Position numbers and translations under genes: made by a program. Source: Bacteroidota bacterium (GTDB lineage Bacteria; Bacteroidota; Bacteroidia; Bacteroidales; VadinHA17). Taken from it: a stretch of DNA of 64,000 nucleotides. Of the stretch, positions 9,331 through 48,890 are shown piece by piece; the first letter of the stretch is position 1, and each line of letters starts with the position of its first letter. The stretch covers positions 186,001-250,000 of the forward strand of contig JAKPDL010000227.1 of the NCBI GenBank assembly GCA_029552825.1, in the 5' to 3' direction. The notes under the pieces were generated by a model. That model did not search any database, had not been told where the DNA came from, and saw only the letters and a list, made by a program, of their open reading frames with translations.

Positions 9331-9721
9331 AAAATTTCAGATATTAAAATTAAATATTATCGTAATAAATTAATTACTTTTCTTTTCAAGAATTAAATCT
9401 TTTTAAAAGTTATTGTCAACTTCAAAAAGTAAAATTCAATCCTTCATGATAAATAAATTCTATCTACTTATGAAAAGAATCAATCATTAAAATCTCAAAC
9501 TAAAAATTTAGATGAAAAAATTGGAAATTTTTATAGACGATATATTATTTTGTATATCAATTACATACGATTTTCAATTTTTAATAATGTTAATAAAATA
9601 ATTTTAATGTTGAAATTTTTTTTTCTGTTTATAGTACAATGAATTTACATTATGCATACTTTCGGCAAAATTTTAAACAAGAAACAGACAACTAAAAAAG
9701 GAGTGAAATTTTCACAACATC
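9331..9721. other. AT-rich divergent spacer upstream of the aminomutase operon
   Basis: These 391 bases separate the divergent epimerase-like and aminomutase genes and contain no credible ORF. A near-consensus -7 box, TACTTTCG at 9657-9664, could start the aminomutase operon, with no clear -33 element. A purine-rich AAAGGAG lies at 9697-9703, too far (18 bases) from the ATG for a normal Shine-Dalgarno contact. A perfect palindrome GTGAAATTTTCAC at 9703-9715 lies between the two, and folding it would bring AAAGGAG closer to the ATG. Confidence 0.55.
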
Positions 9722-10963
9722 ATGAATGCTAACAATAATGAGGCTTCAGCCTTCCATGGAGAAGGTCGCCTCAAAGGTTGCTCTTCTGATGAAGAGCCTG
9801 GCGCGAAAGCAGTAATACTTTCGCAGGTCGAAACGCCAGTACAAATAGTTAGCAACCGGAATGCGGACTTCATCCACCGCTACTTCCCTCTCGCAACTAA
9901 TGAACAATGGAACGACTGGAAATGGCAACTGAGGAATGCTATTACTACGCTGGAAGACCTCAGAAAAATAATGCCATTAACAGAGAAAGAGATTATGGCA
10001 ATCAAACATCTCAAAGGCAGATTGCCATTAAGAATTACGCCTTATTTCGCATCTCTTATCCACAACACCAAACCTGGCAATCCACTCAGGAGAATTGTAA
10101 TACCTGTAGTTGAAGAACTTATTCAACTGCCTGTTGAAAAGCCCGATCCACTGCACGAAGAAGCATATTCACCTGTAAAAGGAATTGTCCACAGATATCC
10201 CGACAGAGTCCTGTTTACTGTGACTCAGGTTTGCTCTGCCTATTGCAGGTACTGCACTCGCTCACATTCGGTAGGCAAACTCGACAAGCTGGGAAAGAAT
10301 GATTTTGAAAAAGCCTTTGATTATATCCGAAATCATACCGAGATTAGAGATGTTCTCGTAAGTGGAGGAGATCCACTTACTATGTCAGATGAAATGCTCG
10401 ATTATATTCTGAAGAATATTCGAAATATCCCCCATGTAGAGATTATCAGGATAGGTACAAGGGTGCCTGTGGTTCTGCCACAGAGAATAACGGATAAACT
10501 TATAGCCACCATGAGAAAATACCACCCACTCTATATCAGCCTGCATTTTTCACATCCGGATGAAATAACAGATGAGTGTGCACAGGCATGCAACAAACTG
10601 GCTGATGGTGGTTTTCCACTCGGCAGTCAGACTGTACTGCTTAAAGGCATAAATGATAATGTGGAAATTATGAAAAAACTCTTCCATAAATTGCTTATGA
10701 TAAGAGTGAGGCCTTATTATCTGTACCAGTGCGACCTTATTCCGGGTTCAGGACATTTCCGGACATCAATAAGGAAAGGACTGGAAATAATCAAAGGACT
10801 GAGAGGATATACAAGCGGTTATGCCATTCCACAATTTGTTGTGGATGCACCGGGTGGAGGAGGTAAAATACCACTCCTGCCCGATTATGTCGTAGCACAC
10901 ACAAAGGAAAAAATAGTTCTCCGCAACTATAAGGGTATGATTTGCGAATACCCTGAAATTTAA
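9722..10963 (+). CDS. kamA: Lysine 2,3-aminomutase family radical SAM enzyme
   Basis: The enzyme is a PLP- and SAM-dependent [4Fe-4S] mutase that would move the alpha-amino group of lysine to carbon 3, giving beta-lysine. The 413 residues contain the cluster motif Cys171-Cys175-Cys178 (CSAYCRYC) and the PLP motif APGGGGK with Lys382. Asp338 (QCDL) and Asp375 (VVDAPG) have the spacing of the two aspartates that bind the lysine side-chain amine in the clostridial enzyme. Glutamate mutases lack these, so lysine is the likelier substrate. Residues 1-48 form an extension before the usual start; their codons coincide with an RNA fold described separately. No alternative ATG, GTG or TTG lies in frame there. 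Two ATP-grasp genes follow at 6 bases. Confidence 0.88.
   Translation: MNANNNEASAFHGEGRLKGCSSDEEPGAKAVILSQVETPVQIVSNRNADFIHRYFPLATNEQWNDWKWQLRNAITTLEDLRKIMPLTEKEIMAIKHLKGRLPLRITPYFASLIHNTKPGNPLRRIVIPVVEELIQLPVEKPDPLHEEAYSPVKGIVHRYPDRVLFTVTQVCSAYCRYCTRSHSVGKLDKLGKNDFEKAFDYIRNHTEIRDVLVSGGDPLTMSDEMLDYILKNIRNIPHVEIIRIGTRVPVVLPQRITDKLIATMRKYHPLYISLHFSHPDEITDECAQACNKLADGGFPLGSQTVLLKGINDNVEIMKKLFHKLLMIRVRPYYLYQCDLIPGSGHFRTSIRKGLEIIKGLRGYTSGYAIPQFVVDAPGGGGKIPLLPDYVVAHTKEKIVLRNYKGMICEYPEI
9739..9857 (+). other. Multi-helix RNA fold embedded in the 5' coding region of kamA
   Basis: Hand folding finds dense pairing within codons 6-46. A helix 9739-9744/9768-9773 (6 bp) encloses 9750-9754/9761-9765 (5 bp). 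A perfect 7-bp hairpin 9780-9786/9791-9797 has the tetraloop TGAT. A helix 9798-9803/9834-9839 (6 bp) encloses 9804-9809/9818-9823 (6 bp). An outer helix 9776-9779/9854-9857 closes the last two, which abut without a gap as if coaxially stacked. About 53 percent G+C by hand count over 9739-9840 contrasts with the AT-rich leader. It could be a cis-regulatory RNA that is also translated, or a palindromic element inserted in frame. I recognise no known riboswitch class. Confidence 0.5.
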
Positions 10964-10969
10964 TTATTT

Positions 10970-11947
10970 ATGAAGGCCGGGATTACTTTTGACCTGCGTT
11001 CGTGGTATCTCGAACGCGGGTTTTCTATGGAAGATACTGCAGAATTTGATAAAGAAGCCACAATAAGCGCTATAAGAAATGTGCTTGAATCAATGGGTTT
11101 TGATACCGAAGAAGTTGGTAACGTCTTTCAACTTATTGAAGCCCTTGCATCAGGTAAAAGATGGGATATCGTCTTTAATATTGCCGAAGGATTGTATGGT
11201 GACGGACGGGAGTCAGTTGTTCCCGCCATACTCGATCAATACCGTATACCATATGTTTTCAGCGGACCGGTAGTACTTGGAGTTGCTCTAAATAAATATC
11301 TGGCAAAACTGGTAGCTTCATCAGCCGGTGTGCCGGTTAGTCCTGGCTTTCTGATTACCTCCCTTGACGATATTAAAAAGTGCGACCTTGAATACCCACT
11401 TTTTATCAAACCTGCCTCTGAAGGTACCGGTAAAGGCATAACAAATAAGAGTATCCTTAAAAAACCTGCAGAACTGAAAGAAGTGGCAGAATACCTGCTT
11501 AAACGGTACAATCAGCCGGCACTTGTTGAAGAATATCTTCCAGGCCGGGAATTCACAATTGGAATTCTTGGCACCGGGGACGAGGCGGTGGCAATAGGGG
11601 GAATGGAAGTAATCTGTAAAGATGAACTTCCATATTCAGTTGAATACAAGGAAAACTATCATTTATACTGTAATTACAAACCCCTTGACGATAGTGATAT
11701 TTCAAAGGAATCAAAAGATGTAGCCCTGAAAGCATGGAAAGCAATTGGCTGCGCCGATGGCGGACGGGTTGATGTAAAAGCTGACAGAAACGGCAGAATA
11801 TGTTTTATGGAAGTAAACCCCCTCGCAGGTCTTCATCCGGTTGATTCAGACCTGCCAATACTTGCACGGTTCTCAGGTATCGAATACAACGAACTGGTTG
11901 AAAGAATCATCAGGTCTGCATTAAAAAGACATAATCTGAAGTTATGA
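10970..11947 (+). CDS. D-Ala-D-Ala-ligase-like ATP-grasp enzyme 1
   Basis: The 325-residue cytoplasmic ligase has the Ddl-type ATP-grasp layout. An N-terminal preATP-grasp domain includes WDIVFNIAEGLYGDGRES. The central domain has LFIKPASEGTGKGI (ATP-binding Lys) and LVEEYLPGREFTIGIL. The C-terminal metal site has GGRVDVKADRNGRICFMEVNPL, with the Glu-x-Asn Mg ligands. Such enzymes join an amino acid carboxylate to an amine through an acyl phosphate. True Ddl proteins normally sit with cell-wall genes. This one is in a tight operon with an aminomutase and a second ligase (ATGA overlap), so a dedicated beta-amino-acid conjugate is the more likely product. Substrates are not readable from sequence. 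Confidence 0.85.
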   Translation: MKAGITFDLRSWYLERGFSMEDTAEFDKEATISAIRNVLESMGFDTEEVGNVFQLIEALASGKRWDIVFNIAEGLYGDGRESVVPAILDQYRIPYVFSGPVVLGVALNKYLAKLVASSAGVPVSPGFLITSLDDIKKCDLEYPLFIKPASEGTGKGITNKSILKKPAELKEVAEYLLKRYNQPALVEEYLPGREFTIGILGTGDEAVAIGGMEVICKDELPYSVEYKENYHLYCNYKPLDDSDISKESKDVALKAWKAIGCADGGRVDVKADRNGRICFMEVNPLAGLHPVDSDLPILARFSGIEYNELVERIIRSALKRHNLKL

Positions 11948-12903
11948 GATGCTGCATACTTTACAATCAGCCTCGCGAAAATGCTCTTGCCGACGAACTC
12001 GATATTCTCGACCAGGTTGAATGGGTCGAAACCAATCTTAAAAAAGCCGGAATTGAAACTTACAGAAAAGGTATCACGAATAATTTCATGAATGAAATAT
12101 CACTTCTGGCTGATGAGAAACCAGATTTTGTTTTTAATCTGGTTGAATCAATAAATAACAAAGGTGAGCTGCTCTATTTCATACCCGCCCTGCTTAACAT
12201 GCATTCAATACCCTATACAGGCAACCCGCTGGAGGCTCTGTTTATTACAACAAGTAAATTTCTTACAGTTAAACTACTTAAAAACGAAGGTATAAGAACA
12301 CCAGAATCTTTTCATATCTCGGAATATAGAAAATTTGAGCCTGGCAAAAGCTATATAATCAAACCTGTATGGGAGGACGGTTCTCTCGATATTACGCAGG
12401 ATTCAGTTTTTGTTTATCATCAAGGTTATGAGGAAAAGTTCATGAATCTGAGAGATTCCCACTGGATAATACAGGAATACATTGACGGAAGGGAATTTAA
12501 TATTAGCCTCCTCACATCGAATGGCAGACCTGAAGTTCTTCCACCTGCTGAAATAGTATTTGTGGATTATGAAGACAGGCCCAAAATTGTTGACTTCAAA
12601 GCAAAATGGGAAGAAAATAGTTTTGAATATAAAAACACTGTGAGAAGGTTTCCCGGAAAAGAACTCGAAGAATCACTCAGGAAGGAGATCGAAGTTACAG
12701 CAATTAAATGCTGGGATATTTTCTCCCTAAGGGGCTATGCCCGTATTGACATGAGAGTTGACAGTGAAAATAGAGTATATGTAATTGAAGTAAATGCAAA
12801 TCCCTGTATATCAAAGAACGGCGGTTTCGTTGCAGCAACTGAAAATGCAGGTTATGCGTTTACAGATGTAATTAAACGAATAATAAATGACTTAAACCGG
12901 TAA
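11944..12903 (+). CDS. D-Ala-D-Ala-ligase-like ATP-grasp enzyme 2
   Basis: A second ATP-grasp ligase of 319 residues starts in an ATGA overlap with the first. Visible motifs are PDFVFNLVESINNKGEL in the N-terminal lobe, YIIKPVWEDGSLDIT with the ATP-binding Lys, WIIQEYIDGREFNISLL, and ARIDMRVDSENRVYVIEVNANP with the metal-binding Glu and Asn. It differs from the first copy at many positions: the glycine-rich loop is EDGS rather than EGTGKG. They are therefore two distinct enzymes and not a recent duplication. The translational coupling suggests the two act in sequence or as a complex on the same product. Substrate unknown. Confidence 0.83.
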   Translation: MRCCILYNQPRENALADELDILDQVEWVETNLKKAGIETYRKGITNNFMNEISLLADEKPDFVFNLVESINNKGELLYFIPALLNMHSIPYTGNPLEALFITTSKFLTVKLLKNEGIRTPESFHISEYRKFEPGKSYIIKPVWEDGSLDITQDSVFVYHQGYEEKFMNLRDSHWIIQEYIDGREFNISLLTSNGRPEVLPPAEIVFVDYEDRPKIVDFKAKWEENSFEYKNTVRRFPGKELEESLRKEIEVTAIKCWDIFSLRGYARIDMRVDSENRVYVIEVNANPCISKNGGFVAATENAGYAFTDVIKRIINDLNR

Positions 12904-18569: not shown

Positions 18570-19340
18570 TTAAATTTTCTCCAGACTATTTACAGGAACC
18601 CATCCTTTATTCCCGTCAGGTAGTTTAATTTCATACCATTCTCCGAGAGCATCAGTAACTGTAACTTTTGTCCCTTCATGAATAAGAAAAAGATCTGTCC
18701 CACTGTTATCAGGTGCACTTTTCCCATTAACCTGAGGGCTGACAATTATTGCTTTGTCACTATTAAAAACAAGGTTCTTGTTTCTTATAGAAAAGCTGAG
18801 CGATGCAAGGCTTATTATCAACATAAAAATTGCCAGCCAGAAACCTGCAACCTTGTACCTGTATACTGAAGTTAACAAATAGACCAACATAAAAATCAGA
18901 CACATAACAAAGCTGATGATGCTAATATAAGCCCATTTATCAGATGAGAGTATCAATGAAATGAAATTATACCATGTAACGAAAAACAATTCAGGTATCT
19001 CGGTAAATCTGTCAACTACATAAGTTCTGGCTACCTGCAAGTTATATCTTATATCTTCATCGGTCGGCTTAAGAAGGTATGCCCTTTCATAAAAGAGTAT
19101 TGCATGTGGCACATCATTTATCTTGAAATATGCATTACCGATATTATAGCAGAGATTGGGTGTTCTGAATCCTGATTTATATATCGGCAGCCATACATCC
19201 AGAGCTTCCTGGTATTTGCCGGAAGTATATAATTCTATGCCCTTCCTGAAGTCATCTTCAGGAAAAACAGCCGCTCTGATTTCAGAATTGAAGTTAAATA
19301 GTGCCAGGATTATCAGTAGAATAATCTTTTTCATCTTCAC
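18570..19340 (-). CDS. batE: BatE, TPR and SH3 protein of the aerotolerance operon
   Basis: The 256-residue protein has a signal peptide (ending IRA), two to three TPR units (about 30-100, CYNIGNAYFKINDVPHAILFYERAYLL) and two membrane helices (about 130-185). A C-terminal bacterial SH3 domain (about 190-256) ends EWYEIKLPDGNKGWVPVNSLEKI. This TPR-TM-SH3 order is that of BatE. It is the last gene of the Bat operon; its start abuts the batD stop. The role is probably scaffolding of the membrane Bat complex in the periplasm; no catalytic activity is expected. Confidence 0.88.
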   Translation of the reverse strand: MKMKKIILLIILALFNFNSEIRAAVFPEDDFRKGIELYTSGKYQEALDVWLPIYKSGFRTPNLCYNIGNAYFKINDVPHAILFYERAYLLKPTDEDIRYNLQVARTYVVDRFTEIPELFFVTWYNFISLILSSDKWAYISIISFVMCLIFMLVYLLTSVYRYKVAGFWLAIFMLIISLASLSFSIRNKNLVFNSDKAIIVSPQVNGKSAPDNSGTDLFLIHEGTKVTVTDALGEWYEIKLPDGNKGWVPVNSLEKI

Positions 19341-48585: not shown

Positions 48586-48620
48586 TTCGCTTTTCTTCCC
48601 GAAAGCTTAGAACTATTGAA

Positions 48621-48802
48621 CTTGTATGGCAGGTCTTCTGACTTGTCCCGGTTTTTGAAGCCTTCCCATCCCGGTTTATCAGGACAGTGGCAGGTTATCA
48701 AAAACCATGATCGCTTTGCGACCAGGCATCACAGCAGCGGGCACTGTTACGGATTCTAACCGTATTCCCTTTTATTGCATATTAAAATGCAATACCATAC
48801 AA
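48621..48802 (-). promoter_or_regulatory. Cobalamin riboswitch
   Basis: Read on the minus strand, the element opens with a closing stem TTGTATGG (48802-48795) pairing with CCATACAA (48629-48622). Inside are the conserved AAAAGGGAA near 48775, GCCACTGTCC and GGGAAGGC in the core, and the B12 box AAGTCAGAAGACCTGCC ending next to the closing stem. These are the diagnostic adenosylcobalamin riboswitch blocks. It precedes the DUF4465-to-btuD operon by 120 bases and should shut it down when cobalamin is plentiful. Whether control is on transcription or translation is not clear. Confidence 0.95.
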
Positions 48803-48805
48803 ATG

Positions 48806-48813
48806 CAAATATA
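48806..48813 (-). promoter_or_regulatory. -7 box of the cobalamin operon promoter
   Basis: TATATTTG on the minus strand, an exact match, ends 4 bases before the riboswitch closing stem. Initiation near 48800 would start the RNA at or within that stem. No -33 TTTG is seen. The remaining bases to 48890 show nothing. Confidence 0.55.
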
Positions 48814-48890
48814 GGATTTTTGAAATATGAGTCCTGCTTTAAAATTCAGAATTTTTATAAACAATTGTTAATTAATTGAAAATAAAAGTT

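Follow-up and report, generated by a model that had tools for sequence, protein, structure and literature searches.

Structured RNA that shares its bases with a protein-coding sequence is known from several bacterial systems. In the rpoH (sigma-32) and cspA mRNAs of enterobacteria, the start region is folded together with coding sequence, while the bacterial SECIS element of fdhF is a conserved hairpin within the coding sequence, located after an in-frame UGA. Rickettsia palindromic elements form hairpins and lie in frame in protein genes, and they are multicopy and mobile.

We analyzed a 64,000-nucleotide stretch of Bacteroidota DNA (the window), in which codons 3 to 44 of a kamA-family gene form a structured RNA, probably of the sense strand, that is kept by selection. 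This element resembles each of the above systems in part. As in the rpoH and cspA mRNAs, its structure consists mostly of coding bases around the start codon and would set the initiation rate, but those mRNAs sense heat or cold and belong to unrelated genes. Like the fdhF SECIS, it is a conserved hairpin structure inside a bacterial coding sequence, although no in-frame stop is present at the kamA element. Like the Rickettsia elements, it is palindromic, hairpin forming, and in frame in a protein gene, yet it occurs as one copy per genome and in one place. With translational riboswitches it shares a multibranched fold of about 125 nt, conserved unpaired bases, and a position adjoining the start codon of a metabolic gene; however, it lies inside the coding sequence rather than in a 5' UTR, was found with a single gene, and corresponds to no Rfam 15 family. 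In the window, no family reached its gathering score at the element, and the only matches at an E value of ≤10 were two snoRNAs, one at 19.9 bits (cut-off, 65) and one at 14 bits (cut-off, 40); at an E value of ≤1, none was obtained in 7 loci carrying the element. This agrees with an earlier note, made from the sequence alone, which had recognized no known riboswitch class. We found no description of the element in the open-licence papers searched, including PMC2864571, PMC3669281, PMC11109978, and PMC13104619. The window also harbors an ordinary cobalamin riboswitch (48611 to 48814, minus strand, 107 bits).

The gene concerned (9722 to 10963, plus strand) starts with ATG and encodes a radical SAM aminomutase of 413 codons. 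Its product scored 376.5 against the broader KamA family TIGR00238 (cut-off, 199.2) but reached 507.2 bits against the cut-off of 525.4 for the lysine 2,3-aminomutase equivalog TIGR03820, falling 18 bits short. The gene belongs to the KamA family, and the more specific name lysine 2,3-aminomutase, used in the earlier note, is likely without being certain. Because of this shortfall, lysine or beta-lysine as a ligand would be a guess. Two ATP-grasp ligase genes follow kamA in the window, in a relative from the same genus (L037), and in a fold-less relative (L039), where, as in L037, they were recognized by sequence likeness rather than by a scan. kamA and the two ATP-grasp genes likely form an operon with the element at its start. 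The relatives named L036 to L038 are metagenome-assembled Bacteroidales genomes. Within 9722 to 12903 of the window, both ATP-grasp proteins are D-Ala-D-Ala-ligase-like and far below the ligase cut-offs, and the three genes might perhaps serve to make a small beta-amino acid derivative, either an amide or a dipeptide.

The elaborate RNA fold previously described in the first 46 codons of kamA proved to be real and stronger than first described. Folded at 37°C, positions 9722 to 9870 gave −52.6 kcal/mol (z = −3.67), and none of 200 dinucleotide shuffles was equally stable. Since the sequence is coding, nulls that preserve codons weigh more. Codons 1 to 46 (GC content, 0.48) folded at −49.3 kcal/mol, compared to −30.9 ± 4.7 in synonymous redraws and −33.6 ± 3.2 when the same codons were permuted, and none of 500 sequences was as stable in either case; this comparison had been named beforehand as one that could refute the fold. 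The other 46-codon tiles of the gene (n = 15, overlapping) had z scores of −2.0 to 0, and the kamA start-region fold ranked first among the 47 window ORFs of at least 120 codons. The second strongest start-region fold of this set belongs to 18573 to 19334 on the minus strand (z = −3.0).

The best fold of the window comprises an outer helix (9727-9733/9848-9854), nested helices (9739-9744/9768-9773 and 9749-9754/9761-9766), a perfect 7-bp hairpin with a 4-base loop (9780-9786/9791-9797), and a helix (9803-9809/9818-9824) that stacks on 9798-9802/9835-9839. The nested helices and the 7-bp hairpin had been described as such and are present. An outer helix exists as well, but it starts 11 to 12 bases before the range of 9739 to 9857 claimed for the fold. 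The outer helix meant there was probably 9776-9782/9851-9857, which ends at 9857 and is a competing pairing, 9.8 kcal/mol worse in the window.

We then asked where the element occurs. A protein search gave matches starting at residue 1 in 51 of 58 genomes of the genus, two being short pieces at contig ends. By covariance model, the element was found in 78 of 117 genomes of the family, in 3 of 15 genera, with one copy per positive genome; in the window's own genus, 55 of 62 genomes were positive. Among the seven that were not, five had a kamA match missing its start, one had no match, and one had a distant KamA only; in the two start-less matches that were fetched, a contig end was confirmed. 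A second model run on 393 genomes of the order recovered the own genome, two other members of the genus, and one new family (G188). Although the RNA model alone was used for the search, the G188 match (E = 3.9e-5) lies exactly at the start of kamA. The G188 element fits the model (36.5 bits) but has a poor closing helix P1, and it is not unusually stable (z = −0.47). In 395 genomes of the class, the search, whose filters lose some weak matches, returned the own copy and two chance-level matches only. Every copy with enough sequence to tell is located at the start of kamA. Since the RNA was seen with one gene only, its distribution gives no guilt-by-association hint of a ligand. Four model matches outside kamA, L197 and L198 (E = 0.049 and 0.059) and L251 and L252 (E = 0.023 and 0.028), were rejected: their translations are not KamA-like, and because the E values are rough and calculated per genome, several such chance-level matches are expected over about 400 genomes.

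The number 78 stands for three different counts, namely, the positive genomes, the copies behind the alignment called A3 below, and a sequence set with the G188 copy (L196) and without L189, which was used for the counts of P0, open frames, and start codons. At L199, L200, L135, and L189 (genomes G006, G041, G042, and G022), a contig starts or ends inside the element, and the element block is nearly identical between species, as if it were breaking metagenome assembly. L133 belongs to a genome (G040) placed in the window's genus, while its kamA groups with the sister genus, by either gene transfer or a mixed bin.

Compensatory change was scored in two alignments, both without the G188 copy. 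A1 holds 48 of the 50 genus copies (L030, identical to another, and L135, at a contig end, were dropped), and these 48 distinct complete elements align without any indel. A3 holds 71 of 78 copies from three genera (L030, L135 and L189, which are cut, and L170 to L173, which have the same element as L169, were dropped). In the gapless A1, 96.3% of cells were paired, with two-sided changes at 12 of 37 pairs. In A3, which was fitted to the structure, 94.2% of cells over the 37 pairs were paired in 71 distinct sequences, with two-sided changes at 14 pairs (135 cells). None of 500 shuffles of A3 reached any of five measures, and sliding the partner strand lowered pairing from 94% to at most 57%. 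Because such shuffles ignore kinship, we mapped the changes on a tree of the downstream sequence, using the 72 tips with enough of it. This gave 28 simultaneous compensatory events against 2.2 ± 1.3 expected, with a maximum of 6 in 300 matched controls, and 53 pair breaks against a control minimum of 68. A stricter tree-null test over all pairs, in the style of R-scape, found none of 14,028 pairs at an E value of ≤0.05; when only the 37 proposed pairs were tested, 6 or 7 were significant. The alignment of homologues that had been proposed as a check thus reveals stems with compensatory changes and pairing that is kept along with the reading frame.

In the consensus, the element spans 9728 to 9853 on the plus strand (element nucleotides 7 to 132, where nucleotide n is window position 9721 + n). 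P1 closes it and starts at +7 of the gene, with 9728-9733 pairing with 9848-9853, and it is one pair longer in the window. In A3, 96.7% of its cells are paired with zero two-sided changes, so that P1 is conserved and probably forms, short of proof by covariation. L116 has a broken P1, and L121 and L127 have a weakened one. P2 and P2a form a single long bulged hairpin (9739 to 9773) with the consensus pairs 9740-9744/9768-9772 and 9748-9754/9761-9767, formed in the window as the nested helices given above. Six of their 12 consensus pairs have two-sided changes, for example, 9749/9766 (GC in 38 sequences, AU in 26). P3 (9780 to 9797) is the 7-bp hairpin, whose 3' strand encodes a conserved E-E and the first base of the following P codon; 99.6% of its cells are paired, and 2 of 7 pairs have two-sided changes. 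P4 (9803 to 9824, formed by 9803-9809/9818-9824, with G-C as last pair in the window) has them at 3 of 7 pairs, two of these in 21 and 19 sequences. Most of the genus carries an AAAA/TTTT type of P4, and the sister genus has GCGGG/CCCGC. Compensatory change is most strongly supported in P2a, P3, and P4.

P5 joins the GGG region at 9775 to 9779 with 9832 to 9837, a CCC region in relatives, where it encloses P3 and P4. It is paired in 91.5% of cells and has two-sided changes at 3 of 5 pairs. It appears in the consensus fold and in few single-sequence folds, and it is missing from the best fold of the window, where 9798-9802 pairs with 9835-9839 instead. A pairing of element nucleotides 78-80/115-117 competes with P5; among the 48 genus sequences, 96% of its cells are paired and a single two-sided change occurs. 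Its longer form (77-81/114-118) is the one used by the window's own fold. A local hairpin of nucleotides 105-109/116-120 looked good in a few relatives but was rejected, as at least 4 of its 5 pairs could form in only 5 of 73 sequences.

Synonymous sites are conserved over the same region. Same-codon identity exceeded the expectation by 0.34 to 0.54 in 15-codon blocks of codons 1 to 60 and by 0.03 to 0.19 in codons 61 to 405 (50 sequences, 46 of them full length). The constraint may therefore extend about 15 codons past the element. This stretch could form a sixth helix: nucleotides 137-141/161-165 are 81 to 100% paired per position, with little two-sided change. Fixation also extends to some 4-fold sites to which the model assigns no partner (CCT in 50 of 50 and ACC in 48 of 48 sequences with the respective amino acid). 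The excess of G·U over A·C cells (96 versus 49) modestly favors the mRNA strand as the folding one. Overall, the claim that a structured RNA lies within the reading frame is backed by the compensatory changes, by the constraint on synonymous sites, and by the nulls that preserve codons.

The same codons encode an N-terminal protein tail. The start ATG is present and codons 1 to 45 are open in all 78 sequences, one of which is cut by a contig end. In an AlphaFold2 model built on a thin alignment of 16 sequences, residues 1 to 43 had pLDDT values below 50 and the first helix began at residue 45, so the RNA is predicted to coincide with a tail that looks disordered. The earlier note had described a 48-residue extension missing in the clostridial enzyme; in the clostridial-type copies inspected by eye, it is indeed short or absent, but it is common in other Bacteroidales. 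The note had also seen no other in-frame start codon, which is true for codons 2 to 60 of the window, but codon 18 could serve as a start (ATG, GTG, or TTG) in 69 of the 78 sequences. Among 16 KamA proteins, one of them RNA-less, Met1 and Pro26 are invariant and Glu24 and Glu25 nearly so. The tail motif SDEEPGAK (codons 22 to 29, positions 9785 to 9808) aligns with an acidic-Pro-Pro motif of RNA-less relatives, the automatic alignment placing DEPPS of L039 over DEEPG of the window. A [DE]x?PP motif is found in the tails of 37 of 39 order-level loci (G188 set aside) and, within the window's own family, in 2 of 4 loci of other genera; it is missing from four KamA tails of the G188 family.

Order-level loci with a tail show no general excess of folding. 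Their mean z score was −0.56 (n = 40, G188 included at −0.47), with five at or below −2. In this set, L215 was analyzed with a wrong start, and the starts used for L239, L242, and L243 lie a few codons too far upstream. A model search of 48 relative loci matched only that of G188. In a tree rooted by midpoint only and built from 69 KamA proteins, of which many are partial, the 14 RNA-bearing rows form one group (support, 96/87), while G188 sits on a long branch with a less sure placement. Given a correct midpoint root, the RNA is probably no older than the tail and would have one origin or one surviving lineage. That an RNA was absorbed into the reading frame, as had been suggested, is thus doubtful, since relatives have the tail and its own conserved motif without the RNA.

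The location of the element suggests how it might act. A short hairpin, P0 (9703 to 9715, stem 9703-9707/9711-9715), ends 6 bases before the AUG in the window; in 68 of the 78 sequences, the best hairpin ends 4 to 7 bases before the ATG, with none by this rule in L017. By plain count, its stem changes while remaining paired, with forms such as GGTGAA/TTCATC, GATGAA/TTCATC, GGTAAA/TTTACC, and TTGATT/AATCAA. From the framing of the AUG by P0 and P1 where the ribosome lands, we infer translational control. We consider it probable that the element controls translation of its own kamA mRNA in cis as an RNA kept by selection within coding codons 3 to 44; cis action, initiation as the controlled step, and the direction of the effect are all read from this arrangement. 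The AUG lies in the short gap between P0 and P1, which begins at +7, inside the ribosome landing site, and initiation would be slow as long as the element is folded. Opening of P1, whether through temperature, the binding of a metabolite, a protein, or alternative pairing of its 3' strand, would let the ribosome load, and the loaded ribosome would then unfold the rest of the element during translation. The predicted pairing of the start itself varies, with an unpaired probability of the AUG of 0.20 to 0.87 in 8 sequences. This variation counts against the proposed control, as do the all-pairs tree-null result, the lack of two-sided change in P1, on which the mechanism depends most, the absence of P5 from the best fold of the window, and the poor P1 and ordinary stability of the G188 element.

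As for what might open P1, the element has a conserved fold with covariation near the start of a putatively regulated gene, as a riboswitch would. It may, tentatively, represent a new metabolite-sensing class lying wholly in the ORF, an aptamer that doubles as a disordered tail, in which the 3' strand of P1 would swap between P1 (off) and the alternative helix 9776-9782/9851-9857 (on), although we regard this as unlikely. The alternative helix can form only in place of P1 and the base of P3. In 68 of 74 sequences, six or more of its 7 pairs could form, but other constraints already act on both of its strands, and two-sided changes occur in one sequence only, the most divergent L133, with two compensated pairs. 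Compared with the P1 state, the alternative lies 4.9 to 15.4 kcal/mol higher in 7 of the 8 sequences tried and 2.6 kcal/mol higher in the eighth. In L133, P1 is missing from the best fold, and forcing it costs 5.2 kcal/mol. A two-state switch of this kind is possible.

An mRNA-level device that is no switch, slowing early elongation or shielding the 5' end from nucleases, is a less probable alternative; it would set a suitable pace of enzyme synthesis or prolong the life of the operon mRNA. Stability far beyond the codon nulls, a place at the start of the likely operon, and the lack of any second gene found to carry the element would all suit it. A plain roadblock, however, should tolerate drift, whereas some unpaired 4-fold sites are fixed and the 48 genus elements are without indel; moreover, L039 has the tail and the same two neighbors yet no model match. 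A trans-acting RNA, cut from or started near the 5' end of kamA, would likewise be compact, conserved, single copy, and probably on the mRNA strand. We hold this to be improbable, as every copy with enough sequence remains at the start of kamA and no credible match away from it was found in the 393 order and 395 class genomes, within the limits of filters that lose some weak matches.

The fold is hairpin rich and in frame, as a mobile palindromic element inserted in the gene would be, but this origin, raised in the earlier note, is already contradicted and has next to no chance of being right. Each of the 78 positive genomes among the 117 searched has a single copy, at an orthologous position, and a fold-less relative has a tail of similar length. 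The proposed search for further copies in the own genome gave only four other matches of 14 to 27 bases (E = 1.5 to 5.3), which is chance level, and the element had no match in plasmid or phage records. We give equally little credence to an overlapping reading frame, in another frame or on the other strand, as the constraint on these bases. One antisense frame is open over codons 1 to 45 in 38 of 78 sequences, but no other frame exceeds this count, compared to 78 of 78 for the coding frame, which already contradicts the idea, and an overlapping frame would not yield compensatory pairs. Finally, the peptide tail could be the selected thing and the RNA pairing a by-product, a reading that the invariant and nearly invariant residues of the 16 proteins and the widespread [DE]x?PP motif might seem to favor. 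It is very improbable: synonymous sites are conserved, codon-preserving nulls fall short of the observed stability, and two-sided changes fall in the proposed pairs. The motif itself needs no fold, as seen from the mean z score over the 40 loci, and the four tails from G188's family are without the motif. As a full explanation, selection on the tail alone is refuted; it can at most be an additional layer of selection.

It thus appears that one stretch of DNA simultaneously encodes a protein tail and carries an RNA device. Since relatives have the tail without the fold, the locus offers a clean case for how one stretch serves both together. Even a structured RNA of such size and clarity could escape attention within coding bases, so that other coding sequences may hold more.

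The acidic-Pro-Pro N-terminal tail is itself found on KamA proteins across many Bacteroidales families (L206, L208 to L243, L201, and L202), and its motif may be a docking motif.
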